A stretch of 64,000 nucleotides of DNA from Pigmentiphaga sp. NML080357 (GTDB taxonomy: Bacteria > Pseudomonadota > Gammaproteobacteria > Burkholderiales > Burkholderiaceae_B): NCBI RefSeq assembly GCF_002188465.1, contig NZ_NINW01000003.1, positions 124,001-188,000 on the forward strand, given 5' to 3'. Position 1 is the first letter of the stretch. Each line of letters opens with the position of its first letter. This document shows positions 2,949 through 32,727 of this stretch, one piece after another. The position numbers and the translations under genes were made by a program. Under the pieces are notes generated by a model that did no database searches, had not been told where the DNA came from, and saw nothing but the letters and a program-made list of their open reading frames with translations.

Positions 2949-4204
2949 ACGCGCGCCCGCAGGCGCCGGCCGCCGCTTCGTCGCTGTACACGAACCGGCG
3001 CGTGGCGCCGCTGCTGGCGCTCGGCTTTGCCAGCGGCCTGCCGCTGGCGTTGACCACCGGCACCCTGCAGGCCTGGGCCACCGTCGACGGCGTGTCGCTG
3101 CAAGCCATCGGCTTCCTGACCCTGGTGGGATCCGCCTACACGCTCAAGTTCCTGTGGGCGCCGCTGATGGACCGCTACACCCCGCCCCTGCTGGGCCGGC
3201 GGCGCGGCTGGATGGTGGTGACGCAATTGCTGCTCGCGCTGTCCATCATGGCGATGGGCCTGCTTTCGCCCAGTGCGGCGCTGCTGCCGCTGGCACTGAT
3301 CGCGGTCTTCGTGGCCTTCTGCTCCGCCTCGCAGGACATCGCTTTCGACGCCTACCGGACCGACGTGCTGCGCAAAGAGGAACGAGGCGCGGGCGCGGCG
3401 GTGTCGGTACTGGGATACCGCCTGGCGATGCTGGTGTCCGGAGGGCTCGCGCTCGTCATCGCCGACAGCTGGCTGGGCTGGGGCAACATGTACGTGCTCA
3501 TGGGCGCACTGATGGGCCTGGCGATCCTCGCCACGCTCTGGGCGCCCGAACCGGAGACCCCGGCAACCGCTCCGCGCACGCTGGCCGAAGCGGTAGCCGG
3601 ACCGCTGCTGGAATTTTTCCGCCGTCCCGGCGCCATCGTGCTGCTGGTGCTGATCGTGCTGTACAAGCTGGGCGACGCTTTCGCGGGCAGCCTGTCGACC
3701 GCCTTCCTGATACGAGGCGCGGGTTTTTCCGCGACCGAAGTCGGCACCATCAACAAGGTACTCGGCCTGGGAGCCACCATCATCGGCGCGCTGGCGGGCG
3801 GCTCGCTGCTCGCGCGGCTGGGGCTGTTTCGTTCGCTGATGCTGTTCGGGCTGCTGCAGGCCGTCTCCAACCTGGGGTTCTGGCTGATCGCCATCAGCCC
3901 CAAGAGCATCCTGCTGATGGCCGCCGCCGTGGGCATCGAGAACCTGTGCGGCGGCATGGGTACGGCGGCCTTCGTGGCGCTGCTGATGGGCCTGTGCGAC
4001 CACCGCTTCTCGGCCACCCAGTTCGCGCTGCTGTCGGCCCTGTCGGCCGTGGGGCGCACCTACCTGGCGGGGCCGCTGGCGCCTCCCATGGTGGAGACCT
4101 ACGGCTGGCCGGCCTTCTTCCTGATGACGGCCATCATCGCCCTGCCCGGCATGGCGCTGCTGTGGTGGCGACGGGCCGACGTGCGGGCGCTGGACCAGGC
4201 CTGA
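2945..4204 (+). CDS. ampG: AmpG-like MFS permease
   Basis: A 419-residue inner-membrane carrier of the AmpG branch of the MFS, which imports anhydromuropeptides for cell-wall recycling. Family hallmarks are the N-terminal GFASGLPLALTTGTLQAW, the segment TLKFLWAPLMDRY, GRRRGWMV in the 2-3 loop, and SASQDIAFDAYRTDVL. About twelve hydrophobic helices are visible. Translation appears to begin at a TTG (2945-2947) that overlaps the upstream stop codon. A strong 15-bp-stem hairpin follows the stop. No ampD or beta-lactamase regulator is adjacent, so the substrate assignment rests on family resemblance alone. Confidence 0.85.
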   Translation: MNARPQAPAAASSLYTNRRVAPLLALGFASGLPLALTTGTLQAWATVDGVSLQAIGFLTLVGSAYTLKFLWAPLMDRYTPPLLGRRRGWMVVTQLLLALSIMAMGLLSPSAALLPLALIAVFVAFCSASQDIAFDAYRTDVLRKEERGAGAAVSVLGYRLAMLVSGGLALVIADSWLGWGNMYVLMGALMGLAILATLWAPEPETPATAPRTLAEAVAGPLLEFFRRPGAIVLLVLIVLYKLGDAFAGSLSTAFLIRGAGFSATEVGTINKVLGLGATIIGALAGGSLLARLGLFRSLMLFGLLQAVSNLGFWLIAISPKSILLMAAAVGIENLCGGMGTAAFVALLMGLCDHRFSATQFALLSALSAVGRTYLAGPLAPPMVETYGWPAFFLMTAIIALPGMALLWWRRADVRALDQA

Positions 4205-4205
4205 G

Positions 4206-4240
4206 GCGGCTCGCGCGGCGGCGCTCGCCGCGCGAGCCGC
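4206..4240. terminator. Bidirectional terminator-like hairpin
   Basis: A perfect 15-bp inverted repeat (4206-4220 with 4226-4240, 5-nt loop, almost all G+C) fills the gap between two convergent genes, the ampG-like gene and the DUF2076 gene. There is no strong T-run on either side, so it may terminate by another route or protect 3' ends. Confidence 0.7.
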
Positions 4241-4247
4241 GCCGGCT

Positions 4248-4949
4248 TCAGACGAAATCGTCGTCGCCGAAGGAGTCCCCCTCGTCCAGCCAGCCGTCGC
4301 CGTCCTGCGACGCATCCGCCTGCAGGTCCCCGGTCCCATCCTGGCCGGCGTCGGTGCCGTAGTTGTTGGTGATGTTTTCGGTGATCGTTTCGGACACGGG
4401 CGCATTCCCCGCCGCCTGGGCCGCCGCGTTCGCCCCGCCGCCCAGCAGATGCTCGATGCCGTTGAAGAGGAACATGCCGCCCGCCACACCGGCCGCGGTG
4501 GCGGCGGCGTTGCCCAGGAAGCTGCCCATGCCGCCCGCCGCCGGGGACTGCGCATAGGACTGCGGGGCTCCGGGATTGCCGACGGGCAAGCCGGCGCGCT
4601 GGCCGAGCCTGCTGCCGATCAGCGGGCCGGAAGACGCCTCCTCGCGCCTGGACGACCGGCCCCAGGCATCCCCGCCCAGCAGGCCTCCCAGGAAACTGCC
4701 CGAAGACTTGGCGGGCGGACGGGCCTCGAGATCGTCGATCTTCTGCTGCAGCTCCGCGATGCGGGCCTTTGCGTCTGCCAGCGCATGCTCGAGCAGCAGC
4801 GCGCGCTGGATGGTGAGGTACAGCGCATCCGGCTGACGCGCGGCTTGCTGGCGGATCAGCGCGTCGGCTTCGGCATCCTTGTCTACGCCCTGGACGCCGG
4901 CGAGCTTGTTCAGGAAGTCCTCGAGCAGGGTTCGTTCATGCGGTGTCAT
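4248..4949 (-). CDS. DUF2076 domain-containing protein
   Basis: A 233-residue protein starting MTPHERTLLEDFLNKL. The N-terminal half is a helical, partly coiled-coil segment (DALYLTIQRALLLEHALADA, then AKARIAELQQKIDDLEAR). The rest is low-complexity Gly/Ala/Ser/Gln sequence with repeated FLGG/FLGN and a short hydrophobic patch around GVAGGMFLFNGI. It ends in a very acidic tail rich in Asp and Gly. This matches the DUF2076 family, whose function is unknown to me. The ATG at 4949 has GGAGGA just upstream and is preferred over an in-frame ATG 42 nt earlier. Confidence 0.8.
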   Translation of the reverse strand: MTPHERTLLEDFLNKLAGVQGVDKDAEADALIRQQAARQPDALYLTIQRALLLEHALADAKARIAELQQKIDDLEARPPAKSSGSFLGGLLGGDAWGRSSRREEASSGPLIGSRLGQRAGLPVGNPGAPQSYAQSPAAGGMGSFLGNAAATAAGVAGGMFLFNGIEHLLGGGANAAAQAAGNAPVSETITENITNNYGTDAGQDGTGDLQADASQDGDGWLDEGDSFGDDDFV

Positions 4950-5046
4950 GGCATCCTCCGCGAATGTCGGCCATGGATTGGGCTGCCGCATGGTGGCAGC
5001 CGGTTCTTAAACCAATCTTAAGACCGGCGTGCCGGCGGGACATTCC

Positions 5047-5484
5047 CTAGCAGGTTTGTCCGTTTGTTCCCGCCCAATGATCCCGCGCCCGGTCGTACAC
5101 GAGGTTGTACAGGTAGGTATAAGGCAGAAAGAACAGCAACAGCCCGATATCCAGGACCAGCGCCTCCCACAGCGAGATGCCCAGCCACCAGGCGGCCAGG
5201 GGCACCACGATCACGATCAGCCCGCCCTCGAAGCCCAGTGCGTGGCCCACGCGCACGCGGGTGTCGCGCACCCATCCCAGGCGCCGTTCCACGCGTTCGA
5301 AGCCGGCGTTGTAGACCATGTTCCATAGCATGGCGACCAGGGAAATCGCGGCCGTGAGCGCGCCCATGTGCAGCAGCGGCTTGCCCATGATCCATGCCAG
5401 GGCCGGCGCGCACAGCGCCACAGCGATGATTTCGAAGAGCAGGGCATGGGCCAGCCGTTCGCCCAGGGTTTTCTTGGGTACCAC
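5047..5484 (-). CDS. PACE-family multidrug efflux transporter (AceI type)
   Basis: A 145-residue inner-membrane protein with four predicted helices, built as two repeats of the bacterial transmembrane pair domain. Conserved features are GERLAHALLFEIIAV in helix 1, the WNMVYNAGFERVE motif after helix 2, and the second-repeat counterpart YTYLYNLVYDRARD. Known family members (AceI of Acinetobacter) export chlorhexidine and other biocides. I start it at the GTG at 5484, which has GAGAGG six bases upstream and gives a family-normal length. The frame is open further upstream to 5589. It is divergent from a LysR gene, the usual arrangement for PACE genes. Confidence 0.85.
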   Translation of the reverse strand: MVPKKTLGERLAHALLFEIIAVALCAPALAWIMGKPLLHMGALTAAISLVAMLWNMVYNAGFERVERRLGWVRDTRVRVGHALGFEGGLIVIVVPLAAWWLGISLWEALVLDIGLLLFFLPYTYLYNLVYDRARDHWAGTNGQTC

Positions 5485-5556
5485 GTCAAACCTCTCGTTC
5501 AACACTTCTTGCTTGCCATTTTCTTCGACAAACCCGTTTAATAAAATGTGATAACT

Positions 5557-5571
5557 ATCGGATTTTCCGAT
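5557..5571. promoter_or_regulatory. Probable LysR operator between PACE pump and LysR gene
   Basis: A perfect inverted repeat, ATCGGA-3 nt-TCCGAT, contains the T-N11-A arrangement typical of LysR-family binding sites. It lies 17 bp upstream of the LysR start and about 70 bp from the PACE start, well placed to control both divergent genes. Confidence 0.5.
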
Positions 5572-5587
5572 TGATTGGAGCCCCGCC

Positions 5588-6448
5588 ATGGCCTATTCCC
5601 TCGACGCCCTCGCCGCCTTCACGCAGGCCGCGGCGCTGGGCTCGTTCTCGGCCGCCGCCCGCAAGCTGGGCAAGCGGCAATCGAGCATCAGCGAGAGCAT
5701 TGCCAACCTGGAGATCGACCTGGGCGTGCGATTGTTCGACCGGGCCACGCGCCAGCCGACCCTGACGCCAGCCGGCCAGGCGCTGCTGGTGGAAGCCGCC
5801 CAGGTACTCGCCAGCGCCGAGCGCCTGGGCCGGGCCGCCGGCCGGTTCGCGGCGGGACACGAGGCCCGGTTGACGCTGGCGCTGTCGGATACCTATCAGT
5901 CCGAACGCTTCGAAACCATCCTGGGCGCGCTCGACCGCCAATATCCCGAGCTGGAATTCGAATGCATGATCTCGGAAGACTGGGACACCGTCGCCACCGT
6001 ACAGCGCGGCCGCGCCGACCTGGGCCTGGTGCGCGCCCAGGAGAGCTATCCACCCGACATCGAACACAGGACCTTGCCCGAACAGTCGGAGATGGTGCTG
6101 GTGGCTGGCAAGGGGCATCCCCTGGCGAAGCGCCAATGCGTGAACGAGGCCGACCTGCGGGGCGAGCGCGAGCTGCGCATCGCGCCCTATGAAGAAGACG
6201 GCCGCCGCGTCGCGCGGGGACGCACCTGGTCGGCACCCTATTACCTGCTGTTGCTGGAAATGGCGATCATGAATTTCGGCTGGGCCCGCCTGCCGCGCTG
6301 GCTGGTGTCCCGCTTCGCCCCGGGCGAACTGGTGGAACTGCACGTGCCCGGACAGGAACGCCTGCTGCCGGTGGACGTCTTGTGGTCCAACCAGCGCCCG
6401 CTGGGGCCGGCCGGGGCCTGGATGCTGGCTGAATTGCTGAAAGCCTGA
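5588..6448 (+). CDS. LysR-family regulator of the PACE efflux gene
   Basis: A 286-residue LysR-type regulator. The winged helix-turn-helix is at residues 5-65, with FSAAARKLGKRQSSISESI the recognition region, followed by a linker helix and a two-lobed effector domain starting near residue 95. The ATG at 5588 follows GGAG at about 9 nt. Its divergent position beside a PACE pump and the palindrome between them suggest that it induces the pump on exposure to a cationic biocide or related compound. Confidence 0.88.
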   Translation: MAYSLDALAAFTQAAALGSFSAAARKLGKRQSSISESIANLEIDLGVRLFDRATRQPTLTPAGQALLVEAAQVLASAERLGRAAGRFAAGHEARLTLALSDTYQSERFETILGALDRQYPELEFECMISEDWDTVATVQRGRADLGLVRAQESYPPDIEHRTLPEQSEMVLVAGKGHPLAKRQCVNEADLRGERELRIAPYEEDGRRVARGRTWSAPYYLLLLEMAIMNFGWARLPRWLVSRFAPGELVELHVPGQERLLPVDVLWSNQRPLGPAGAWMLAELLKA

Positions 6449-6564
6449 GCCCTTCGGGCGGCCGCGCGGGCGCGCGCACTGGACTACCCTCCTGTCGCTG
6501 CGCGACATCCTCCCCGAGGGAGGGAGCGCGCCCTTCGGGCGGCCGGGCGGGCGCGCGGGCGCGC
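6449..6564. repeat. Direct repeat pair in GC-rich intergenic region
   Basis: The gap between the convergent LysR and SulP genes contains two near-identical copies, around 6450-6477 and 6531-6559. Each copy begins GCCCTTCGGGCGGCCG. Between them is CTCCCCGAGGGAGGGAG, which can fold. The sequence differs from the larger palindromic repeat family seen elsewhere in the window. Confidence 0.5.
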
Positions 6565-8241
6565 TCAGGCCGCCGCCAGCCGGTCTATCGCCTCGCGCTC
6601 GGTGCGGAAGACATGCTCGGGGGGCAGGAGCCGGGTGACGCCGGCGGTTTCCAGCACGTCTTCCACCTGTTTTTTCACGCCCGCCAGATAGACCTCTACG
6701 CCCTGGTCGCGCAGGGTACCGATGAGATAGGTGAGCGTGTCGACACCGGTCACGTCGATGCTGTTGATGGGGCCCGCATAGATCAGCACCCGCCGGATGC
6801 CGGGGTCGGCCCGGCAGCGCTCGGTAATGAAATGCTCGAGCGGGTTGGCGGTGACGAAGCTCAGGGCTGCGTCCATCCGCACCGCCAGGAGGTCGGGCGC
6901 CAGCGGCGGCAAGCCGAAACGCTGGCGGTCGCGCAGCGTGCCGTCGGCGTGCACGCCGACTTCGACGATGCGCGGATGCGAGCGCTGGTACAGGAAATAA
7001 CCCAGCGACAGGATGAAACCCGCGAGTATCCCCCACTGCAATTGCGGCGCGGCGATCAGGGTGGCGACCGCGGTGGCCGCGGCAATGCACGCTTCCGCGC
7101 GCGACGTGTGCCACAGCCTGGCGAAGAAGCGCGGCGAGATCAGGTTCGTGACGGGCACGATGATGACCGCTGCCAGGAACGCGCGTGGCAAATGCGCGAT
7201 GGCGGGCGTCAGGAACAGCAGGCTTGCCAGCACGCAGACGAAAGCGAACAGCGCCGACCAGCCGGTGCGGGCGCCGACGAACAGGTTCAGCGCCGACCGC
7301 GAGAATGAAGCGCTGACGGGGAATGCGCCGCTCAGGCCGCTGGCCACCTTGGCCAACCCCTGGCCGATGAACTCCTGGTCTTCGTTCCAGCGCTGGCGTG
7401 TGCTGCGCGAGATGGTCTTGGCGCTGGACAGGGCTTCGACGAAGCTCACGAGCGCGATCACCGCCGCCGCGGGCAGAAGGCTCCGGTAGTCTTCCCAGTC
7501 CAACGGCTTGGGAATGGAAAACGCCGGCAGGCCGGCGGGCAAGGCCCCCACGACCGCGCCGCCGCGCGCGCCATAGTCGATGGCCCAGCTGATTACGCCG
7601 GTGACGAGCGCCGCCGCCAGCACGGTGGGCAGCCGCTTGCTGTGCTTCTTCAAGGCGAAGAGGAACACCAGCGTTCCCATGCCGAAAGCAAAGGCCGTCC
7701 AGTCGACGCCGCCGACCAGACCGGCGGCATCGCCGGCGGCGAGGGCGGCGCGCGATGCGCTCCAGTGCAGCCCCAGCATCGCGGGCAATTGCGACAGCAT
7801 GATCAGCAGCGCCGCGGCCTGGGTGAAGGCGCCTACCACCGATCCGGGCAGGAAGTTCACCACCATGCCGAGCCGGGTCGCGCCGATCAGGATCTGGATG
7901 GCACCCGCCATCAACGCCAGCCAGATCGCCAGCTCCACCCAGCGTGCCGATTCCGCCGCGGCCATGCCCGCCAGCGAACCGGCCACCAGCATGCTGGTGA
8001 GCGCCACCGGACCGGCGCCGAGCAGTTGGCACGATCCCCAAAGCACACTGATCACCGGCGGCACCAGGGCGGCGTACAGGCCGGTGATGGGAGGCATGCC
8101 TGCCAGCATCGCATAGGCCACGGCCTGCGGAACCAGGATCAGGCCCAGCGTGAAGCCGGCCCGGGCATCGGATGCGAGATCGGCGGCCGTGGGGCGAGGC
8201 CAGTTCAGGAAAGGGAAGTAGCGGCGGAGCGGAGCGGGCAT
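6565..8241 (-). CDS. SulP-family anion transporter with STAS domain
   Basis: A 558-residue inner-membrane carrier of the SulP (SLC26) family, which moves sulfate, bicarbonate or other anions. The N-terminal signature is present (LGLILVPQAVAYAMLAGMP, then GLYAALVPP and a GSCQLLGAGPVAL segment), followed by about 10-12 helices. A cytoplasmic STAS domain starts near residue 440 and contains the GVDTLTYLIGTLR region. The ATG at 8241 was chosen because the sequence before it in the same frame has no family character. An SDR gene lies 31 bp upstream on the same strand, so the two may be cotranscribed. The anion cannot be told from sequence. Confidence 0.9.
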   Translation of the reverse strand: MPAPLRRYFPFLNWPRPTAADLASDARAGFTLGLILVPQAVAYAMLAGMPPITGLYAALVPPVISVLWGSCQLLGAGPVALTSMLVAGSLAGMAAAESARWVELAIWLALMAGAIQILIGATRLGMVVNFLPGSVVGAFTQAAALLIMLSQLPAMLGLHWSASRAALAAGDAAGLVGGVDWTAFAFGMGTLVFLFALKKHSKRLPTVLAAALVTGVISWAIDYGARGGAVVGALPAGLPAFSIPKPLDWEDYRSLLPAAAVIALVSFVEALSSAKTISRSTRQRWNEDQEFIGQGLAKVASGLSGAFPVSASFSRSALNLFVGARTGWSALFAFVCVLASLLFLTPAIAHLPRAFLAAVIIVPVTNLISPRFFARLWHTSRAEACIAAATAVATLIAAPQLQWGILAGFILSLGYFLYQRSHPRIVEVGVHADGTLRDRQRFGLPPLAPDLLAVRMDAALSFVTANPLEHFITERCRADPGIRRVLIYAGPINSIDVTGVDTLTYLIGTLRDQGVEVYLAGVKKQVEDVLETAGVTRLLPPEHVFRTEREAIDRLAAA

Positions 8242-24870: not shown

Positions 24871-24899
24871 AGCGGCGGACCGTCCAGAAATTGGGCTTA

Positions 24900-24948
24900 G
24901 GGGATGCCGTAGTCGGGTCCCCGGTGAAACTTGCTGACTAATCAGGAG
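24900..24948 (+). promoter_or_regulatory. ROSE-like RNA thermometer in the hsp20 5' UTR
   Basis: Two hairpins precede the hsp20 start. Hairpin 1 pairs GGGGA (24900-24904) with TCCCC (24918-24922), with CCG/CGG inside. Hairpin 2 pairs CTTGCTGA (24930-24937) with TCAGGAG (24942-24948) over a CTAA loop. One G is left bulged, and the Shine-Dalgarno AGGAG is buried in the 3' strand. A CUUGCU strand with a bulged G opposite AGGAG is the diagnostic geometry of ROSE elements, which open on heating. The sequence match is direct and the function is inferred. Confidence 0.6.
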
Positions 24949-24957
24949 ATTCGAGCC

Positions 24958-25428
24958 ATGAACGCTGCTTTTTCTCTGGCACCCTTGTTCCGCCATTCCG
25001 TCGGTTTCGACCGCTTCAACGACTTGTTCGAATTCGCGCTGCGTAACGACACGGGCAGCACCTATCCGCCCTACAACGTCGAGAAGCGTGGCGACGACGA
25101 CTACCGCATCGTGATCGCGGCGGCCGGCCTGCGCGATGAGGACCTGGACGTCCAGGTCGAGCGCGGCGTGCTGACCGTGACCGGTGGCCGGCGCGAGAAG
25201 GACGAAGACAAGGTCACCTACCTGTATCAGGGCATCGCGCAACGCGCCTTCAAGCTGTCGTTCCGCCTTGCCGACCACATCGAAGTGCGCGGCGCCCATC
25301 TCGAGAACGGCCTGCTGCACATCGACCTGGTAAGGCAAGTGCCTGAAGAAGCCAAGCCCAAGCGCATCGCGATCGGCAGCGCCGCCCCGGCGCAACGCCA
25401 GCAACCCGCGCTGGCCAACGCGGCCTGA
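24958..25428 (+). CDS. Small heat-shock protein, Hsp20/IbpA type
   Basis: A 156-residue chaperone that holds unfolding proteins. The N-terminal arm is FSLAPLFRHSVGFDRFNDLFE. The alpha-crystallin domain spans about residues 36-130 with YRIVIAAAGLRDEDLDVQVE, the GIAQRAFKLSFRLADHIEV segment and GLLHIDL near its end. A short Gln/Ala-rich tail follows. The ATG at 24958 has AGGAG sequestered in a hairpin. This fits heat-induced translation. A long terminator hairpin follows the gene. Confidence 0.92.
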   Translation: MNAAFSLAPLFRHSVGFDRFNDLFEFALRNDTGSTYPPYNVEKRGDDDYRIVIAAAGLRDEDLDVQVERGVLTVTGGRREKDEDKVTYLYQGIAQRAFKLSFRLADHIEVRGAHLENGLLHIDLVRQVPEEAKPKRIAIGSAAPAQRQQPALANAA

Positions 25429-25582: not shown

Positions 25583-26218
25583 CTACGCCGCCGGCGCCCA
25601 TACCTCGTGGCTGCGCGGCGTATCGATGCGATAGTCGCTATAGGGCCATTGCAGCAGGCGGGCACCCAGCCGCCGGGCCGCCGTCAGCGGATCGCGAGGA
25701 TCGTGCGCGACCTCGCCCCGGCGGTTGCCCGCTCCATGCACGTAGCCGACGAAGGCCGAGTGGGTGTAGCGCGCGAATTCCTGCATTTGCTGCACGATGC
25801 CGAGTCCCGCGCCGGGATAGGTTTCCTCCGACGCCAGCGTCAATGCAAGCCGCTTGCCTTGCATCCTCGTCAGCACGTCGGCGTGGCCGGGGTAGGAGTT
25901 CGAGTAATAGGTGAACGAGCGGTCGAAGAAGGCCTTGGTCTGCGCCGACATGCCGTACCAATAGATGGGCGTGCAGAACACGACGCCGGCGGCGGGCAGG
26001 AATTCCTCGAGGAAAAGCTCGGCGTACCGGTCCGTGGCCGGATCCGAATAATGGGTGCGGTCTCCCAGGAATCCGCCGAGGTAGTCGTCCAGGAAACGCA
26101 CGCGGGTCTCGGCGCCCGCTTCACGCGCGCCGTCTTCGACGGCCCGGGCCAGCAGGGCGCTGTTGCCGTCCCGGCGCGGGCTGCCGACGAGAATCAGTAT
26201 CGAAGAAGGTGAATCCAT
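25583..26218 (-). CDS. NAD(P)H-dependent FMN reductase / flavodoxin-fold oxidoreductase
   Basis: A 211-residue flavodoxin-like protein. The FMN phosphate loop is GSPRRDGNSALLARAV at residues 12-27. The isoalloxazine-contact segment is FCTPIYWYGMSAQTKAFFDR, typical of the FMN_red/NADPH-quinone reductase group. It probably reduces quinones, flavins or azo-type substrates. It is divergent from a GcvA-type LysR gene, with a 21-bp palindrome between them. Confidence 0.85.
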   Translation of the reverse strand: MDSPSSILILVGSPRRDGNSALLARAVEDGAREAGAETRVRFLDDYLGGFLGDRTHYSDPATDRYAELFLEEFLPAAGVVFCTPIYWYGMSAQTKAFFDRSFTYYSNSYPGHADVLTRMQGKRLALTLASEETYPGAGLGIVQQMQEFARYTHSAFVGYVHGAGNRRGEVAHDPRDPLTAARRLGARLLQWPYSDYRIDTPRSHEVWAPAA

Positions 26219-26346: not shown

Positions 26347-27282
26347 ATGTTCGCCGGATTGCCCCTGAACGCCTTGCGCACTTTCGAAGCGGCGGCCAGG
26401 CTGCGCAGCTTCAAGCAGGCCGCGGCCGAACTCAACGTTACGCCGACCGCCGTTTCGCACCAGGTCCGCTCGCTGGAACGCCACTTGGGCGTGGCATTGT
26501 TCGAGCGCGGGGCAGGCGGTGTGCGGATTACCGCGCCGGGAAACCGGTTGCTCGATGCGGTGCACGGTGCACTGCTGGACATCGGCCAGGCCATCGACGC
26601 CTTGCGGCCCCGGCGCAGCGGCGGCACGGTCACGGTCACCACCACCCATTCGTTTGCCGCGTTGTGGCTGGTGCCGCGGCTGGGGCGCTTCTACCAGGAG
26701 CACCCCGGCTACGAAGTGTGCATCGATACGACTGCGCGGGTCATCGATCTCCTCCAGGACGCCAGCGTGGACGTCGCCATCCGTTACGGCACCGGCGAAT
26801 ATCCCGGCTTGCTCGCGCCGGCGGCCCTGGCCGAGTCGTTCGGGGTATACGGCGCCCCCGGCCTGGTCTCGGCCGGGGTCAAGGCAAGGCCCGTGCTGAT
26901 CTCGGTGCAGTGGCGCGATTCCACCTTGTATGAAGACGTTTGGCGGCTATGGTGCGAAGCCGCGGATCTGCCATGGCTGCGAGGCCGTCCGTCGATGCGG
27001 CGCTACGAAGAAGAACACTATGCCCTGCAGGCCGCCATCGCGGGCCAAGGCTTGGTGCTGGCAAGCTCGATCATCGTGTCGGACGCCGTGGCCCAGGGCC
27101 TGCTCATGCCCTTCAGGCCCCACGTGACGGTACCCGGCGCCCGCTACACCGTGCTATGCGCGCCGGGCCGCGAACGCCATCCGCCGGCGCGCGCTTTCCT
27201 TGGCTGGCTGGAGCGGGAGTTCGGCGGTTCGAGCGCCGTCACCCCGCCGCCTCGGCGAACCGCAGGCCGACGATCCCGATGA
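26347..27282 (+). CDS. LysR-family regulator, GcvA-like
   Basis: A 311-residue regulator of the GcvA subgroup. It opens PLNALRTFEAAARLRSF, with helix-turn-helix FKQAAAELNVTPTAVSHQVR, LGVALFERG and the GGTVTVTTTHSFAALWLVPRL start of the effector domain. Its last 15 codons overlap the 3' end of the convergent SMR gene by 44 bp, so the tail (TPPPRRTAGRRSR) may be a read-through extension. The likely target is the divergent flavin reductase. Confidence 0.87.
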   Translation: MFAGLPLNALRTFEAAARLRSFKQAAAELNVTPTAVSHQVRSLERHLGVALFERGAGGVRITAPGNRLLDAVHGALLDIGQAIDALRPRRSGGTVTVTTTHSFAALWLVPRLGRFYQEHPGYEVCIDTTARVIDLLQDASVDVAIRYGTGEYPGLLAPAALAESFGVYGAPGLVSAGVKARPVLISVQWRDSTLYEDVWRLWCEAADLPWLRGRPSMRRYEEEHYALQAAIAGQGLVLASSIIVSDAVAQGLLMPFRPHVTVPGARYTVLCAPGRERHPPARAFLGWLEREFGGSSAVTPPPRRTAGRRSR

Positions 27283-27562
27283 CGGCAAGGGCAAGAAAGA
27301 ACAACCGGACGGCATGGGCGTTCTCCTGGAAATACACCATGCCCAGCACGGTCAGCCCTATGGTTCCCAGGCCGGTCCAGATCGCATAGGCGGTCCCCAG
27401 CGGCAGCGCACGCAGTGCCAGCGCCAGCAGATAGATGCTCCCCAGGCCAGCCGCCACGGCGGCGACACTGGGCAGGGGCTTGCTCCAGCCGCCGTTCAGC
27501 TTCAATGCCGCGCCCATGGCCACTTCCAGGCAGGCCGCCGCCAGCAGATATAGCCAAGCCAT
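27239..27562 (-). CDS. Small multidrug resistance (SMR) transporter
   Basis: A 107-residue, four-helix inner-membrane protein of the EmrE/SugE type. The membrane Glu of helix 1 is present (YLLAAACLEVAMGAALKL), as is GTAYAIWTGLGTIG in helix 3, the canonical A-Y-A-[IV]-W-x-G signature. It exports cationic compounds as a dimer. The ATG at 27562 has GGGAG upstream and lies 4 bp after the GST stop, so both form one operon. The 3' end overlaps the LysR gene on the other strand. Confidence 0.9.
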   Translation of the reverse strand: MAWLYLLAAACLEVAMGAALKLNGGWSKPLPSVAAVAAGLGSIYLLALALRALPLGTAYAIWTGLGTIGLTVLGMVYFQENAHAVRLFFLALAVIGIVGLRFAEAAG

Positions 27563-27566
27563 GGCG

Positions 27567-28238
27567 CTACTCCCTGTGCGCATCCGGCGCGCCCCGCTGT
27601 TCCGAACGGCCGCGGATGCGATTGGCGATCAATGCGCGCTGCACCGCCGGCCGCGCCTCGATTGCCGCCAACCACTGGCGGACGGCGGGATAGGCGGTCA
27701 TGTCGAGCGCGAGCTCGTCATGCGTGCGCAGCCAGGGAAACGCCGCCATGTCGGCGATGGAATAGTCATCCAGCGCAAGATGGCGGGAAGCTTGCAGACG
27801 CCGCTCGACCACGCCATACAGGCGATGAGACTCCTTGCGATAGCGCGCGAGGGCCTCCTCGTTGCGCGTGCCGGAGCCGTGCATGAACCACCAGAGCTGG
27901 CCGAGCATGGGCCCGATCCCCGCCACCTGGAAGTACAGCCATTGCTGTATCTGCAGGCCATCGGCGAGCGAGGCGGACGAAAAGCGGCCGTACTTGTTCG
28001 CAAGATAAGTCAGGATGGCGCCGGACTCGAATACCGACACGCCTGTGTCGGCATCCGTGATGGCGGGTATCTTGCCGTTGGGATTGATGGCCAGGTATTC
28101 GGGACGATGCTGCTCGCCCCGTCCCAGGTCGAGTCCCACCTGTGTGTAGGAAACGCCGGCCTCCTGCAGGAAGATGTTGATCTTCAGGCCGTTGGGGGTA
28201 TCGGCGGTGTAGAGGGTGATGGCTGCGGTCGAGGTCAT
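27567..28238 (-). CDS. Glutathione S-transferase, YghU/YfcG-like
   Basis: A 223-residue GST. It starts TSTAAITLYTADTPNGLKI, in which TPNG(L)K corresponds to the Thr-Pro-Asn glutathione-contact motif of the Nu-class disulfide-bond oxidoreductases YfcG and YghU. It continues with INPNGKIPAITD, VFESGAILTYLANKYG and a C-terminal helical domain with the DYSIADMAAFPWL segment. That class often acts on organic hydroperoxides or disulfides. An ATG at 28256 is an alternative start. A 27-bp palindrome shared with the MarR region lies just upstream. Confidence 0.87.
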   Translation of the reverse strand: MTSTAAITLYTADTPNGLKINIFLQEAGVSYTQVGLDLGRGEQHRPEYLAINPNGKIPAITDADTGVSVFESGAILTYLANKYGRFSSASLADGLQIQQWLYFQVAGIGPMLGQLWWFMHGSGTRNEEALARYRKESHRLYGVVERRLQASRHLALDDYSIADMAAFPWLRTHDELALDMTAYPAVRQWLAAIEARPAVQRALIANRIRGRSEQRGAPDAHRE

Positions 28239-28266
28239 GTCGGCATCCGTTGGCACGAATTATCGA

Positions 28267-28293
28267 TTGCAATTACAATCATCGTAATTGCAA
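28267..28293. promoter_or_regulatory. MarR operator candidate 1 (GST / E1-like intergenic region)
   Basis: TTGCAATTAC-7 nt-GTAATTGCAA is a perfect 10-bp inverted repeat centred between the divergent GST and E1-like genes. Its half-site recurs in the marR/aceE intergenic region at 29921-29984, next to the only MarR gene in the window. This makes it the probable binding site of that repressor. Confidence 0.65.
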
Positions 28294-28304
28294 CTCTATC
28301 GCGG

Positions 28305-29444
28305 ATGAACCGCCTGCACAAGATGGAGACCGGCACATTTCGTTTTTCCTCGCCCGGCCCGGGCGATGCGCATGCCACTCGGCGGGCGGCCATGCATTGC
28401 CTGGCGGTGCTGGAGCGCTGCAGGACGCTGGCTGGCGAGGCCCGGCTCACGCCCCTGAAGGCCATCGAGTCTTACGCCCGGGCGTTGGAAAGAGAAGCGG
28501 CGGCGGACCAGGCCTGGGTGATCAGGACCGATGCGACAGAAGGCGAAGGCACCCTGGCCAGCGCCTGGCCGCTATGGTTCGGCCGCAACGCCCGGCGTTT
28601 CGAACGGCCGCTCTTGTATCTGCTCCACGCGTGCTCGGTGACCCAGCTGCGCGTGAGGCTGGCGCAATTGCGCCAGCGCGGCGTGCTTTGCAACGATGTC
28701 GCCTGGCCGCGTCATCGCGCGGGGGATCTCCCCCTATGGCTGGCGGACAACCTGACCTGCCTGCCCTACGACCCGGCATCGGCAGGCGAGGCATGGACGA
28801 TCATGGCGAACGCGCTTCGAGACCTGTATGTAGGCGGCGCCCGGCGGCTCTACTACCTATCGGCACACGATCACGCGGACGAGGCGTCCACGCTCCTGGA
28901 TGCGGCCCAGGCGGCCGACGCCGTGCGCGGCATGTACCGGGTCCGGCCTCCGCGGGCCGGACAGGCGGCGGTCAGGCTGCTGGCCGCCGGCGCGACGCTG
29001 CGCACCGCCCTGCGGGCGGCCGATCGCCTGTGGCAGGACTGGCGCGTCATCGCCGAAGTATGGAGCTGTCCGAGCTATACGCGGCTTGCTCGCGAGGCCA
29101 GCGATGCAGAAGGGCTCAGGCTGCTTCGTCCTTCCGCACCTGTCCGCCGCGCCCACCTCGTTCGTTGCCTGGGCCGCGACGGGAGCCCCGTCGTGGCCTC
29201 CACGGCCTACCCCCGCCGCATCGCCGAGCAGATCGGCGCCCACGTGCAGGGCAGGTTCGTCGCGGTGGGAGGCGATTCGCCTACCTTGACGCCTCTGCCT
29301 CCTGCCTTGTCAGCCGAGGGGCTCGCCATACGCGCGATCCAGGCCCTGTGCGACGAGGGCCGGCTCCCTGCGGCCGCACTGCCCGCCGCGATACATCGGT
29401 ATGCCAGCGGTCCCCTGCCGGCCGACACGCGCGCAGACGCCTAA
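28305..29444 (+). CDS. Orphan half-length pyruvate dehydrogenase E1-like protein
   Basis: A 379-residue protein (373 if it starts at 28323). It resembles only the C-terminal half of homodimeric pyruvate dehydrogenase E1, that is, the pyrimidine and transketolase-C domains. By eye it aligns with residues ~490-889 of the E1 encoded at 30058. For example, ATLRTALRAADRLWQDWRVI aligns with AILREVIAAAELLDRDFSIG, and NALRDLYVGGARRLYYL with DGLRRMYVEQEDIYYYV. The thiamine-diphosphate GDG...NCN domain is absent, as is the GLQHDDGHSH loop, so independent catalysis is doubtful. The frame is intact. No strong ribosome-binding site is seen. It is followed by the convergent marR gene. Confidence 0.65.
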   Translation: MNRLHKMETGTFRFSSPGPGDAHATRRAAMHCLAVLERCRTLAGEARLTPLKAIESYARALEREAAADQAWVIRTDATEGEGTLASAWPLWFGRNARRFERPLLYLLHACSVTQLRVRLAQLRQRGVLCNDVAWPRHRAGDLPLWLADNLTCLPYDPASAGEAWTIMANALRDLYVGGARRLYYLSAHDHADEASTLLDAAQAADAVRGMYRVRPPRAGQAAVRLLAAGATLRTALRAADRLWQDWRVIAEVWSCPSYTRLAREASDAEGLRLLRPSAPVRRAHLVRCLGRDGSPVVASTAYPRRIAEQIGAHVQGRFVAVGGDSPTLTPLPPALSAEGLAIRAIQALCDEGRLPAAALPAAIHRYASGPLPADTRADA

Positions 29445-29454
29445 CGCTCCGCCG

Positions 29455-29901
29455 TCACCCCAGGGACTGCCGGGCTGCTGCAGCGGCGCGGTCCAGCGCC
29501 GCCGCGAAGCGGTCGCGCTCGGCGGGGCTGAACTGCGACAGGAACAATTCGTCCACCGCTGCCTCGTAGACCTTCCACATCTTCCGGCGCAGCGCCCGCC
29601 CTTCCTTGGTGATCGAGGCGTATGCCGCGCGTCCATCCTGCGCGGAGCGGGTGCGCGTGACCAGCCCTTCCTGCTCCAGCCTGTCCACCAGGCGCGTCAG
29701 GTTGTAGCGCTCGATCGCCATCACGTCCGCCAGTTCATGCATGCGGCGAGTGCCGTCGGGCCCGCTCTCCAGCCCCCACAGCGCGTCGTACCAGGCGTAG
29801 GACGGCAAACCGGCCGCGGCCAGGCGGCGTTCGATCTCCCGGATCATCCAGCGATGCGCGCGGACGAACGAGAACCAGGGATCGGCTTCTTTCTCTGCCA
29901 T
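29455..29901 (-). CDS. MarR-family transcriptional regulator
   Basis: A 148-residue winged-helix repressor with core LADVMAIERYNLTRLVDRLEQ (recognition helix) and RTRSAQDGRAAYASITKEG (wing). I start it at the ATG at 29901, which has GGAG at good distance. The upstream in-frame ATG at 29922 overlaps a palindrome. Its gap with the divergent aceE paralogue carries several ATTGCA/TGCAAT palindromes like that at 28267. It is therefore likely to repress the E1 gene, the E1-like gene, the GST-SMR operon and itself. Confidence 0.88.
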   Translation of the reverse strand: MAEKEADPWFSFVRAHRWMIREIERRLAAAGLPSYAWYDALWGLESGPDGTRRMHELADVMAIERYNLTRLVDRLEQEGLVTRTRSAQDGRAAYASITKEGRALRRKMWKVYEAAVDELFLSQFSPAERDRFAAALDRAAAAARQSLG

Positions 29902-29920
29902 GCGGACTCCGTGATCTCCC

Positions 29921-29984
29921 ATTGCAGTTGCAATTATATGGCGAGGCGATAGAATTGCATTTACTATGATTGCATTTGCAATTC
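29921..29984. promoter_or_regulatory. MarR operator cluster (marR / aceE-paralogue intergenic region)
   Basis: Three overlapping or adjacent perfect palindromes occur here. ATTGCA-2 nt-TGCAAT is at 29921-29934. The same pattern is at 29969-29982. GAATTGCA...TGCAATTC spans 29952-29984. All share the half-site of operator 1 at 28267-28293. They sit directly upstream of the marR start and 74 bp before the E1 start. Confidence 0.65.
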
Positions 29985-30057: not shown

Positions 30058-32727
30058 ATGAATCCGCCTCTCGCCTCTCTCGACACCGATCCCCAGGAAA
30101 CCCGCGAATGGCTGGACGCCATGGAGGCGGTCGTGGCGGTCGAAGGCCGCGACCGGGCGCACTACCTGATCGATCAACTGCTGGACGAAGACATGTCCCG
30201 GCATGGCGACCTGCACGGCCGGGTCACGACGCCTTACGTGAATACCATTCCGCGCGCGCGCCAGCCGGCCTATCCCGGCGACCTGGCGATCGAGCGCCGC
30301 CTGAGCGCCTATGTGCGCTGGAACGCGATGGCCATGGTGTTGCGCGCCGGCAGGCATTCCAACGTCGGCGGCCATATCGCCACCTATGCCTCGGCGGCGG
30401 TGTTGTACGACGTGGGTTTCGACCATTTCTTCCGCGGCCGCACCGCCGAGTTCGCCGGCGACCTGGTGTACATCCAGGGTCACTCGGCTCCCGGCATCTA
30501 TGGCCGGGCCTACATCGAAGGCCGCATAGACGAAGCCCGGCTGGACAACTTCCGGCGCGAGGCCGGGCGCATCGGGCTTTCGTCCTACCCGCACCCCCGG
30601 CTCATGCCGGACTTCTGGCAATTCCCCACCGTGTCGATGGGCCTGGGCCCGCTGACTGCCGCCTATCAGGCCCGCTTCATGCGCTATCTCGACTATCGCG
30701 GCCTCAAGCCGCAACAGGGGCGCAAGGTGTGGGCCTTCCTCGGCGATGGCGAAATGGACCAGCCCGAGTCGCTGGCCGCCATCGCCCTGGCCGGCCGGGA
30801 AAAACTCGACAACCTGATCTTCGTCGTCAATTGCAACCTCCAGCGACTGGACGGCCCGGTGCGCGGCAACGGCAAGGTCATGCAGGAACTCGAAGGCACG
30901 TTCCGAGCCGCGGGCTGGAATGTCATCAAGGTGGTGTGGGGCGGCGGCTGGGACGCCTTGCTGGCGCGCGACCACACGGGCCTGCTGCGCCGCCGGATGA
31001 TGGAGTGCGTGGACGGCGACTACCAGACCTTCAAGTCGCAGAACGGCGCCTACGTGCGCGAGCATTTCTTCGGCAAGTACCCCGAGCTGCTGGACCTCGT
31101 GGCCGACATGACGGATGACGAGATCTGGGCGCTTTCCCGCGGCGGCCACGATCATGAAAAAGTCTACGCCGCCTATGCCGCGGCCGTATCCCATTCTTGC
31201 CGGCCCACGGTGGTGCTGGCCAAGACCGTGAAAGGCTTCGGCATGGGCGAGGCCGGGGAAGGCCAGAACATCAACCACCAGTTGAAGAAGATGGCCGACG
31301 CCGCCGTGCGGGCGTTCCGCGACCGGTTCGCGCTGCCCCTGACCGACGCGCAGCTGGCCGAGATGCCTTACCTGAAGCCCGAACCGGGCAGCCCCGAAGC
31401 CCGTTACCTGGCCGACCGGCGCGCCCGCCTGGGCGGCCACGTGCCCGCGCGCAGCGGCGCGGTGGCGCCGCTGCCGGTGCCGGCGCTCGACGCCTTCGCG
31501 GCGCATCTGAAGGATACGGGCGACCGGGGCGCTTCCACCACCATGGCGTTCGTGCGCATCCTGAGCACACTGCTGAAGGACCCGCAACTCGGCCCCCTGG
31601 TCGTTCCCATCGTCCCCGACGAGTCCCGGACCTTCGGCATGGAAGGGCTGTTCCGCCAGATCGGCATCCATTCGCACCTGGGGCAGTTGTACACGCCGCA
31701 GGATGCCGGCCAGCTGAGCTACTACAAGGAAGCCCGGGACGGCCAGATCCTGCAGGAAGGCATCAACGAGGCGGGCGCGATCGCGTCGTGGATCGCCGCC
31801 GGCACCTCGTACAGCACGCACGGCCTGGCCACCATTCCCTTCTACATCTTCTATTCCATGTTCGGCCTGCAGCGTGTGGGCGACCTGGCGTGGGCGGCGG
31901 CCGACGCACGCACGCGCGGTTTCCTGCTGGGCGCCACGTCCGGCCGCACGACGCTGATGGGCGAAGGCCTGCAGCACGACGACGGGCATAGCCACGTGCT
32001 GTCGTCCGTCATTCCCAGTTGCGTCTCGTACGATCCTGCCTTCGCCTGCGAACTGGCGGTGATCATCCAGGACGGCCTGCGCAGGATGTATGTCGAACAG
32101 GAAGACATCTACTACTACGTCACGCTGCTCAACGAAAACTACCCGCACCCTGCGCTGCGCGAGGAAGACAAGGAAGGCATCCTGAAAGGCCTGTACCTCT
32201 TCCGCGCGGACGCCGGCCCCGCCGGACGACCGAGAGTACAGCTGATGGGCAGCGGCGCCATCCTGCGCGAAGTCATCGCCGCGGCGGAACTGCTGGACCG
32301 GGACTTTTCCATCGGCGCCGACATATGGAGCGCCACCAGCCTCACCGAACTGCGTCGCGACGGGCTGGCGGCCGAGCGCTGGAACCTCCTGCATCCCGGG
32401 GCCACGCCGCGCGTGTCCTACGTGCAGCAGTGCCTGCGCGAGCACGCCGGCCCCATCGTCGCCGCCACCGACTACATGAAGATCGTCGCCGACCAGATCC
32501 GCCCCTTCGTCGGCGGCCGGCGTTTCGTCGCGCTGGGCACCGACGGCTTCGGACGCAGCGATACCCGGGAATCGCTGCGGACCTTCTTCGAGGTGGACAG
32601 GCATTTCATCGCCGTGGCGGCGCTCAAGGCGCTGGCCGACGAAGGCGCCGTGCCGCCCGCGCTCGTGGCGCAGGCGATGCAGCGGTACGGCATCGATGCC
32701 GACAAGCCCGATCCCGCCATCGCATGA
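30058..32727 (+). CDS. aceE: Pyruvate dehydrogenase E1 component, homodimeric type (stand-alone paralogue)
   Basis: An 889-residue thiamine-diphosphate enzyme that decarboxylates a 2-oxo acid and acetylates lipoyl-E2. The ThDP motif runs from GDGEMDQPES (~230) to NCNLQRLDG (~258). Also present are YIQGHSAPGIYGRAY, the flexible-loop region KGFGMGEAGEGQNINHQ, the pyrimidine-domain EGINEAGAIASW, GLQHDDGHSH, and the C-terminal GSGAILREV. The ATG at 30058 has GGAG 7 nt upstream. Unusually, no E2 (aceF) or E3 (lpd) gene follows. With the MarR operators upstream, this looks like a regulated second E1 rather than the housekeeping one. The substrate could be pyruvate or another 2-oxo acid. Confidence 0.88.
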   Translation: MNPPLASLDTDPQETREWLDAMEAVVAVEGRDRAHYLIDQLLDEDMSRHGDLHGRVTTPYVNTIPRARQPAYPGDLAIERRLSAYVRWNAMAMVLRAGRHSNVGGHIATYASAAVLYDVGFDHFFRGRTAEFAGDLVYIQGHSAPGIYGRAYIEGRIDEARLDNFRREAGRIGLSSYPHPRLMPDFWQFPTVSMGLGPLTAAYQARFMRYLDYRGLKPQQGRKVWAFLGDGEMDQPESLAAIALAGREKLDNLIFVVNCNLQRLDGPVRGNGKVMQELEGTFRAAGWNVIKVVWGGGWDALLARDHTGLLRRRMMECVDGDYQTFKSQNGAYVREHFFGKYPELLDLVADMTDDEIWALSRGGHDHEKVYAAYAAAVSHSCRPTVVLAKTVKGFGMGEAGEGQNINHQLKKMADAAVRAFRDRFALPLTDAQLAEMPYLKPEPGSPEARYLADRRARLGGHVPARSGAVAPLPVPALDAFAAHLKDTGDRGASTTMAFVRILSTLLKDPQLGPLVVPIVPDESRTFGMEGLFRQIGIHSHLGQLYTPQDAGQLSYYKEARDGQILQEGINEAGAIASWIAAGTSYSTHGLATIPFYIFYSMFGLQRVGDLAWAAADARTRGFLLGATSGRTTLMGEGLQHDDGHSHVLSSVIPSCVSYDPAFACELAVIIQDGLRRMYVEQEDIYYYVTLLNENYPHPALREEDKEGILKGLYLFRADAGPAGRPRVQLMGSGAILREVIAAAELLDRDFSIGADIWSATSLTELRRDGLAAERWNLLHPGATPRVSYVQQCLREHAGPIVAATDYMKIVADQIRPFVGGRRFVALGTDGFGRSDTRESLRTFFEVDRHFIAVAALKALADEGAVPPALVAQAMQRYGIDADKPDPAIA

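Follow-up and report, generated by a model that had tools for sequence, protein, structure and literature searches.

A conserved, putatively inactive half of pyruvate dehydrogenase E1 encoded beside a MarR-family gene and a spare E1

An open reading frame in the window (the whole 64,000-nucleotide stretch of Pigmentiphaga sp. NML080357 DNA analysed here) encodes HALF, a pseudo-E1 half which is a fast-evolving, selectively maintained derivative of the PYR and C-terminal half of homodimeric pyruvate dehydrogenase E1, and whose relatives form a single clade. We computed its homology, predicted fold, catalytic loss, gene order, an associated palindrome, purifying selection and co-occurrence with E1m, the E1 encoded downstream of it. 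We see even chances that HALF is a pseudoenzyme of a putative MarR regulon that binds and modulates pyruvate dehydrogenase E1 in a detoxification setting.

Results

HALF resembles the C-terminal half of E1

The HALF gene lies at 28305..29444 (+). Its frame of 379 codons is intact, as the earlier note had stated, and ends in TAA; the start codon is either ATG 28305 or ATG 28323, the second of which fits the alignment of homologues better. BLASTP aligned residues 151-373 of HALF with residues 654-887 of the 889-residue E1 encoded downstream (34% identity, E 5e-29), and the NCBIfam aceE profile (TIGR00759) was matched with E 1.6e-32 over profile positions 638-826 of 885 only. With 112.4 bits HALF stays below the curated AceE threshold of 859.9, as against 1418.9 bits for E1m. 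Transketolase_C_1 is the sole Pfam domain above cut-off (E 6e-10), and the transketolase-type C-terminal domain PF22613 is present in 48 out of 48 HALF homologues. A search of PDB sequences with HALF gave four matches, all to AceE (E 4.5e-16), and a profile made from 48 HALF rows also found AceE at the top (E 2e-45), with two transketolases far behind.

According to the profile alignment and to a MAFFT alignment of 16 HALF and 6 E1 rows, the first 150 residues approximate a shortened E1 middle (PYR) domain, the model of which (PF17831) was matched in 6 of 48 homologues. About 40 residues have been deleted from it around E1 515-553, as seen in both profile-profile and multiple alignments. Alignment and model together place a shrunken PYR domain at about residues 1-155 and on, and the transketolase C-terminal domain at about 209-373. 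It had been proposed that HALF aligns with E1 along its length; this is firm from about residue 151, and less firm for the shortened PYR domain before it.

An AlphaFold model of HALF, built from 48 homologues, reached a pLDDT of 87.9 and a pTM of 0.88. Its best Foldseek match was the E. coli E1 3lq2 (E 5.7e-21, TMq 0.69, 377 columns, rmsd 5.4); five of the eight AceE chains in the Foldseek list align over 287 columns only (TMq 0.62). The predicted fold of HALF resembles the PYR and C-terminal domains of E1. The earlier note had proposed a structure prediction of the protein alone and a profile comparison, in which the lack of a match to the E1 C-terminal domains would tell against its claim; the model is good and the match highly significant.

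HALF relatives are spread over Beta- and Gammaproteobacteria

Full-length relatives of HALF were found in 12 of 268 genomes of the same family (first 7 candidates per genome scored), namely its own genome, three genus-mates at 56-57% identity and eight others at 40-43%. E1m is present in 52 of these 268 genomes (first 3 candidates per genome scored), with 68-100% identity to the E1m of the window and 1362 bits or more, the next E1s standing at about 62% and 1254 bits. All 12 HALF genomes are among these 52, a co-occurrence with a hypergeometric probability of 9e-10, a figure that ignores phylogeny. In a class sample of 369 genomes, with up to 5 candidates scored per genome, no HALF beyond that of the window appeared at E 1e-60, and the five remaining matches proved to be the ends of full-length E1s.

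We then turned to a contig search, for which a single HALF protein gave no matches and a 13-row HALF alignment gave 104 relatives; we kept the best 80. These relatives were selected by the patterns [VI]WSCPSYT and PYD[PL]A[SC][GA]xEA, so that the conservation of the WSCPSYT and PYD[PL]A blocks in the resulting loci is biased, whereas whole-protein searches are not. The final set of 85 loci consists of the window, L034, L039, L044 and L045 (one of them a B. arboris replicon) and the best 80 of the 104 relatives. It leaves out eight duplicates of counted genomes (L035-L038, L040-L043) and includes some species twice (B. arboris, B. ansorpii and others of Pseudomonas). The 80 relatives come from Pseudomonas, Burkholderia, Pandoraea, Massilia, Pseudoduganella, Janthinobacterium, Herbaspirillum, Cupriavidus, Achromobacter, Bordetella, Alcaligenes, Erwinia and Pantoea, plus two records at family or order level, so that 13 named genera of the Beta- and Gammaproteobacteria are represented.

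The plasmid search yielded one full-length match, on a 3.5-Mb B. arboris replicon. In the phage collection, the Pseudomonas simiae HALF matched four records with 64% query coverage each, three of them annotated as pyruvate dehydrogenase E1 and the fourth without annotation. HALF and E1 had no PADLOC match, and we rejected a phage or defence origin of HALF.

HALF lacks the catalytic parts of E1

Pfam, NCBIfam and BLASTP all showed the ThDP-binding N-terminal domain to be absent from HALF, and a GDG[EAD] motif occurs in 1 of the 85 HALFs. Neither GLQH nor EG[ILV]NE, the Glu571 motif, was found in any of the 85 HALF homologues, in contrast to 75 out of 75 neighbouring E1s for both (the names Glu571 and His640 follow E. 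coli AceE numbering). In the alignment, too, HALF has not retained the glutamate at the Glu571 position. In place of the GLQHDDGHSH loop, HALFs have a stretch with the consensus W-P-K-G-x-x-P-x-L-P-L-W-L-A, degenerate in the HALF of the window. The claim that HALF lacks both the GDG...NCN domain and this loop is thus borne out. Deprived of the ThDP domain, of the activating glutamate and of the catalytic histidine loop, HALF should be unable to carry out E1 chemistry alone.

HALF is encoded next to a MarR gene and a spare E1

A MarR-family regulator (29455..29922, -; Pfam MarR_2, E 1.5e-13; start possibly ATG at 29901) is convergent to HALF. Behind it, 613 bp downstream of HALF, begins E1m, a complete third homodimeric pyruvate dehydrogenase E1 of 889 aa (30058..32727, +). 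On the other side, a glutathione S-transferase (GST; 27567..28256, -) is divergent from HALF, with an operator region in common; its nearest NCBIfam family is the GSH-dependent disulfide-bond oxidoreductase, below that family's cut-off. An SMR family protein (27239..27583, -; Pfam PF00893, E 7e-23) is encoded downstream of the GST gene and overlaps it.

This arrangement recurs. MarR converges on HALF in 77 of the 85 loci by tblastn (our own gene calling placed it in 67), and the 5′ end of E1 comes next in 75 (counting a remnant in L092 and an interrupted frame in L090), that is, as a unit HALF> <MarR E1>. The earlier note had called the gene an orphan, a word that these counts contradict, and had asked whether HALF and E1 co-occur beside a MarR gene across genomes, as they do. 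A divergent GST gene lies upstream of HALF in 36 of the 85 loci and an SMR gene in 17; further neighbours in some genera are a flavodoxin-fold reductase, a second GST and a NUDIX protein. All loci except L092, that is 84 out of 85, lie in genomes with an E1m gene (one frame being interrupted). Ten loci do not show the E1-next geometry: in L103, E1m stands on the other side of HALF at a distance of about 4 kb, and in the remaining nine it is at another place in the genome. These nine, together with L092 and its 5′ remnant, are the ten loci without an E1m gene within the stretch.

Some individual loci depart from this order. Pseudomonas syringae PA-4-7F (L092) has kept HALF and MarR, with only a 5′ remnant of E1m at about 7548-7910, and in L090, from a metagenome bin, the E1m frame is interrupted. 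In Bordetella ansorpii (L061, L063) HALF and MarR are apart from E1m. Here a 3-hydroxyisobutyrate-dehydrogenase-like gene (L061 9736-10647, the same gene in L063) sits in the place of E1 with two palindromes before it, and E1m is elsewhere in the genome, in G079 beside only a weak MarR match. Near the module of the window there is a flavodoxin-fold NAD(P)H reductase gene (25583-26218, -), a similar one standing beside E1m in a few loci, such as L125. Further upstream, an Rfam ROSE_3 RNA thermometer (24898-24963, +; 57.2 bits) covers the start of an Hsp20 gene listed at 24931-25428, the true start of which is probably downstream of the listed TTG.

The module also exists without HALF

Eleven active-site positions are identical in all 74 aligned E1m family members (74 of the 75 E1m were used). 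With these positions invariant and the aceE cut-off passed, E1m should be a working pyruvate dehydrogenase E1. In the family sample, 40 of the 52 E1m genomes do not carry HALF. We fetched 12 E1m loci from HALF-free genomes, and found a MarR match in 11 (one of them partial) and a strict palindrome (see below) in 11. That the MarR and E1m module is kept without HALF argues that HALF is accessory and not an obligatory subunit; it speaks against an anti-repressor too, and for a modulator. In L162 (genome G003, about 2950-7425) SMR, GST, MarR and E1m are all present with both GST-side palindromes, and HALF is absent; this is perhaps a natural HALF deletion.

A palindrome is common to the promoters of the module

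Between the divergent GST and HALF genes lies the 27-bp palindrome TTGCAATTACAATCATCGTAATTGCAA (28267..28293), a putative MarR operator. Upstream of E1m there are two further putative operator sites, TTGCAGTTGCAA at 29922..29933 (G000:C34:153922) and TTGCATTTGCAA at 29970..29981 (G000:C34:153970). We searched the 85 loci for palindromes of the type TTGCANNTGCAA, using a strict pattern and a relaxed one (strict or one of six one-base variants). Upstream of HALF the strict pattern was matched in 70 and the relaxed one in 81 of the 85 loci, the HALF of the window being matched by the relaxed pattern only. Of the four loci with no site in the upstream stretch used, L113 is at a contig end, and L115, L117 and L122 have a strict site about 170-185 bp before the chosen start. 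Upstream of E1m the strict palindrome was found in 75 out of 75 loci. The rest of the 1.39 Mb of HALF loci yielded 9 matches to the strict and 19 to the relaxed pattern; all but one of the 9 strict matches belong to the HALF/E1m system.

Over whole genomes the picture is less sharp. The own genome contains 7 strict sites, two of them in the MarR-E1m gap, against 3 for a reversed control pattern, and in two Alcaligenes genomes the control is as common or commoner (14 against 12, 12 against 25), which shows that the short palindrome alone is unspecific genome-wide. Two A/T-centred TTGCANNTGCAA sites in the own genome, G000:C10:108029 and G000:C56:273108, could belong to the MarR regulon as additional sites or be due to chance.

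Palindromes in common are usual for MarR proteins. The hallmark of a MarR regulon, a palindrome common to the regulator's own and its target promoters, is present here as a DNA pattern, and the simplest reading is that it is a putative MarR operator serving MarR, E1m, HALF and GST.

HALF is maintained by purifying selection

The earlier note had named many disrupted homologues as the sign of a decaying pseudogene. We found instead that the frame is open in 85 out of 85 loci, the shortest (317 codons) being cut by a contig end, although the 24 weakest of the 104 relatives lie outside this set and some broken copies could thus be missed. Over 202 close pairs, chosen for E1s at least 0.88 identical and for limited divergence at synonymous sites, the median dN/dS of HALF was 0.18 (range 0.08-0.39), about three times that of the neighbouring E1 (0.056). 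In three genus-mates (L034, L046, L047) HALF stops about 25 codons early, near residue 353 of the window protein, and the match continues past the stop.

In a tree made without 17 of 29 E1 rows, with aceE represented by 2 rows, HALF forms one clade (18 rows, 100/100 support) on a long branch. HALF hence looks like one old derivation rather than the repeated breakage of neighbouring E1s; the branch lengths make its place relative to the E1s unsure. Furthermore, in the 63 loci with all three genes, the distances of HALF and E1m are correlated (r 0.91). This fits an interaction, but it may also reflect common inheritance, since E1m-MarR (0.87) and HALF-MarR (0.82) are high as well; the three genes being inherited together, the correlation is no proof of interaction.

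Discussion

The earlier note had suggested a partner or regulatory role with E1, and this is the reading that the genetics best favours: 84 of 85 loci are in genomes with E1m, a DNA element is common to the genes and their order is conserved. As to how this would work, we infer that the MarR protein is a repressor binding the palindrome, from which an inducer would release it. The GST, SMR, reductase, second GST and NUDIX neighbours suggest a toxic small molecule, which is probably what the inducer would be. E1m and HALF would then be made together, and HALF would bind E1, be it E1m or the housekeeping AceE, with the dimer surfaces that it has inherited from E1. Its binding may tune the activity or the assembly of E1, in whichever direction, as pseudo-subunits do. 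On the other hand, chemistry or sensing, and not E1 binding, could be the role of the conserved, Cys-containing WSCPSYT block. A more specific form of the mechanism, which we put forward as an unlikely speculation, is an inducible exchange module. On poisoning, MarR would free a resistant spare E1 together with the inactive half-E1, and the half would heterodimerize with E1 subunits, disarming the poisoned housekeeping enzyme or tuning the new one.

Several other explanations have to be set against this modulator. HALF might be a ligand sensor whose transketolase C-terminal fold binds a small molecule and acts on MarR, as an anti-repressor, or on another target, with no binding to E1. Indeed, 77 of 85 loci have MarR convergent to HALF, L061 and L063 have HALF with MarR and no E1m alongside, and many invariant residues of HALF are in the C-terminal domain. 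However, MarR-E1m modules without HALF retain the palindrome (11 of the 12 fetched), and MarR therefore does not need HALF; in the genomes checked, moreover, HALF is found only where E1m exists or, in L092, existed. We consider this sensor unlikely. As a target mimic, HALF would soak up a toxin or inhibitor aimed at pyruvate dehydrogenase E1, in company with the spare E1m and with GST and efflux genes for detoxification. This would account for the xenobiotic-stress neighbours (GST in 36 and SMR in 17 of 85 loci, some with the flavodoxin-fold reductase or second GST) and for a dN/dS about three times that of E1m. Yet known E1 inhibitors use the ThDP and substrate site, which HALF does not have, no such inhibitor is known in this case, and a GST of this kind is lacking beside HALF in 49 of 85 loci, all of which makes mimicry rather improbable. 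An enzyme with new chemistry is less probable still. It could draw on invariant polar residues such as Cys255, His188 and Tyr258, which are conserved both in 13 rows (the window plus 12 from whole-protein searches) and in the 48-row alignment, and on WSCPSYT, found in none of 75 E1m; but no cofactor motif was seen in HALF, the presence of WSCPSYT in 85 of 85 HALFs is a biased count because the block served as a search pattern, and, to our knowledge, C-terminal domains of this superfamily are not catalytic.

The domain content of HALF is that of E1-beta and of the split-gene transketolase 6yaj (Foldseek E 2.5e-9), so that it might be the catalytic beta subunit of a split E1 whose ThDP-binding alpha subunit is a protein of its own. 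Nevertheless, none of the 85 HALFs has the Glu571 motif or the GLQH loop, and a search of the own genome with the N-terminal half of E1 as query, which addresses the AceE type only, found the three full-length E1s and, beyond these, one weak match (E 4.5e-4) in a frame of 693 aa, but no alpha half of the AceE type. A split E1 with an AceE-type alpha gene was rejected for want of such a gene in the own genome, and we regard a split E1 in general as very improbable. The faster evolution of HALF relative to E1m, and its shortening by about 25 codons at the C-terminus in three genus-mates, are what one would expect of a decaying fragment of a duplicated E1. This is already contradicted by the open frames in all 85 loci, the dN/dS of 0.18, the synteny and the conserved palindrome; we rejected HALF as a pseudogene, and decay is hardly credible.

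Metabolism passes a central gate at pyruvate dehydrogenase, and the homodimeric form of E1 is usually viewed as a self-sufficient enzyme. In Pseudomonas, Burkholderia and their relatives, a conserved half-E1 devoid of catalytic parts seems to be governed by the control element of a complete spare E1. This would indicate a level of E1 regulation for which we have found no description, and a stress in response to which bacteria swap or tune the enzyme. The exchange module, if true, would as far as we know and could find contain the first pseudo-subunit to be described that derives from a homodimeric 2-oxoacid dehydrogenase E1. The family is large enough, and present in tractable soil pseudomonads, to make these ideas directly testable.

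A full-text literature search, with most subscription papers outside its scope, found no description of the HALF family. The claim that no protein of this kind had been described therefore stands for the family in the literature searched, and fails for its architecture, for which catalytic beta-subunit halves exist. We rate HALF as new in being a pseudoenzyme of E1, with halves of like domain content already known as catalytic beta subunits. HALF is like homodimeric E1 (AceE, TIGR00759; PDB 1l8a, 3lq2) in its C-terminal domain, both by sequence and by fold, and in a looser way in its PYR scaffold. It differs from AceE in having no ThDP-binding domain, Glu571 motif or His640 loop, in its length (379 against about 889 residues) and in its score (112 bits against a cut-off of 860). 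The E1-beta subunit of alpha2-beta2 E1 is a free-standing catalytic PYR plus C-terminal half that works with an alpha partner and keeps the catalytic Glu. The beta subunit of the split-gene transketolase (PDB 6yaj), which Foldseek matched, is likewise a free-standing PYR and C-terminal half. The hallmark of this type, PYR and C-terminal domains on one chain, is present in HALF with a shortened PYR domain, according to AlphaFold and Foldseek. However, the beta subunits are paired with alpha and catalytic, whereas HALF is most similar to AceE, has no catalytic residues and came without an AceE-type alpha half in the own genome.

As for function, the trypanosome AdoMet decarboxylase prozyme and plant PDX1.2 are inactive paralogues that are expressed with, and bind, the active enzyme. 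Their families are unrelated to HALF, for which expression and binding with E1 are proposed by analogy. The aceE2 gene of Pseudomonas fluorescens SBW25 (PFLU3193) was dropped as a comparison, as it is reported to belong to a putative operon whose genes are of fatty-acid or polyketide-like type (PMC3641028). On the side of regulation, EstR/estC in Agrobacterium are reported as MarR-controlled stress genes in which the MarR gene adjoins its target (PMC5201249). In contrast to MarR systems of the EstR/estC type, the putative targets at the HALF locus are a spare pyruvate dehydrogenase E1 and an inactive half of it.
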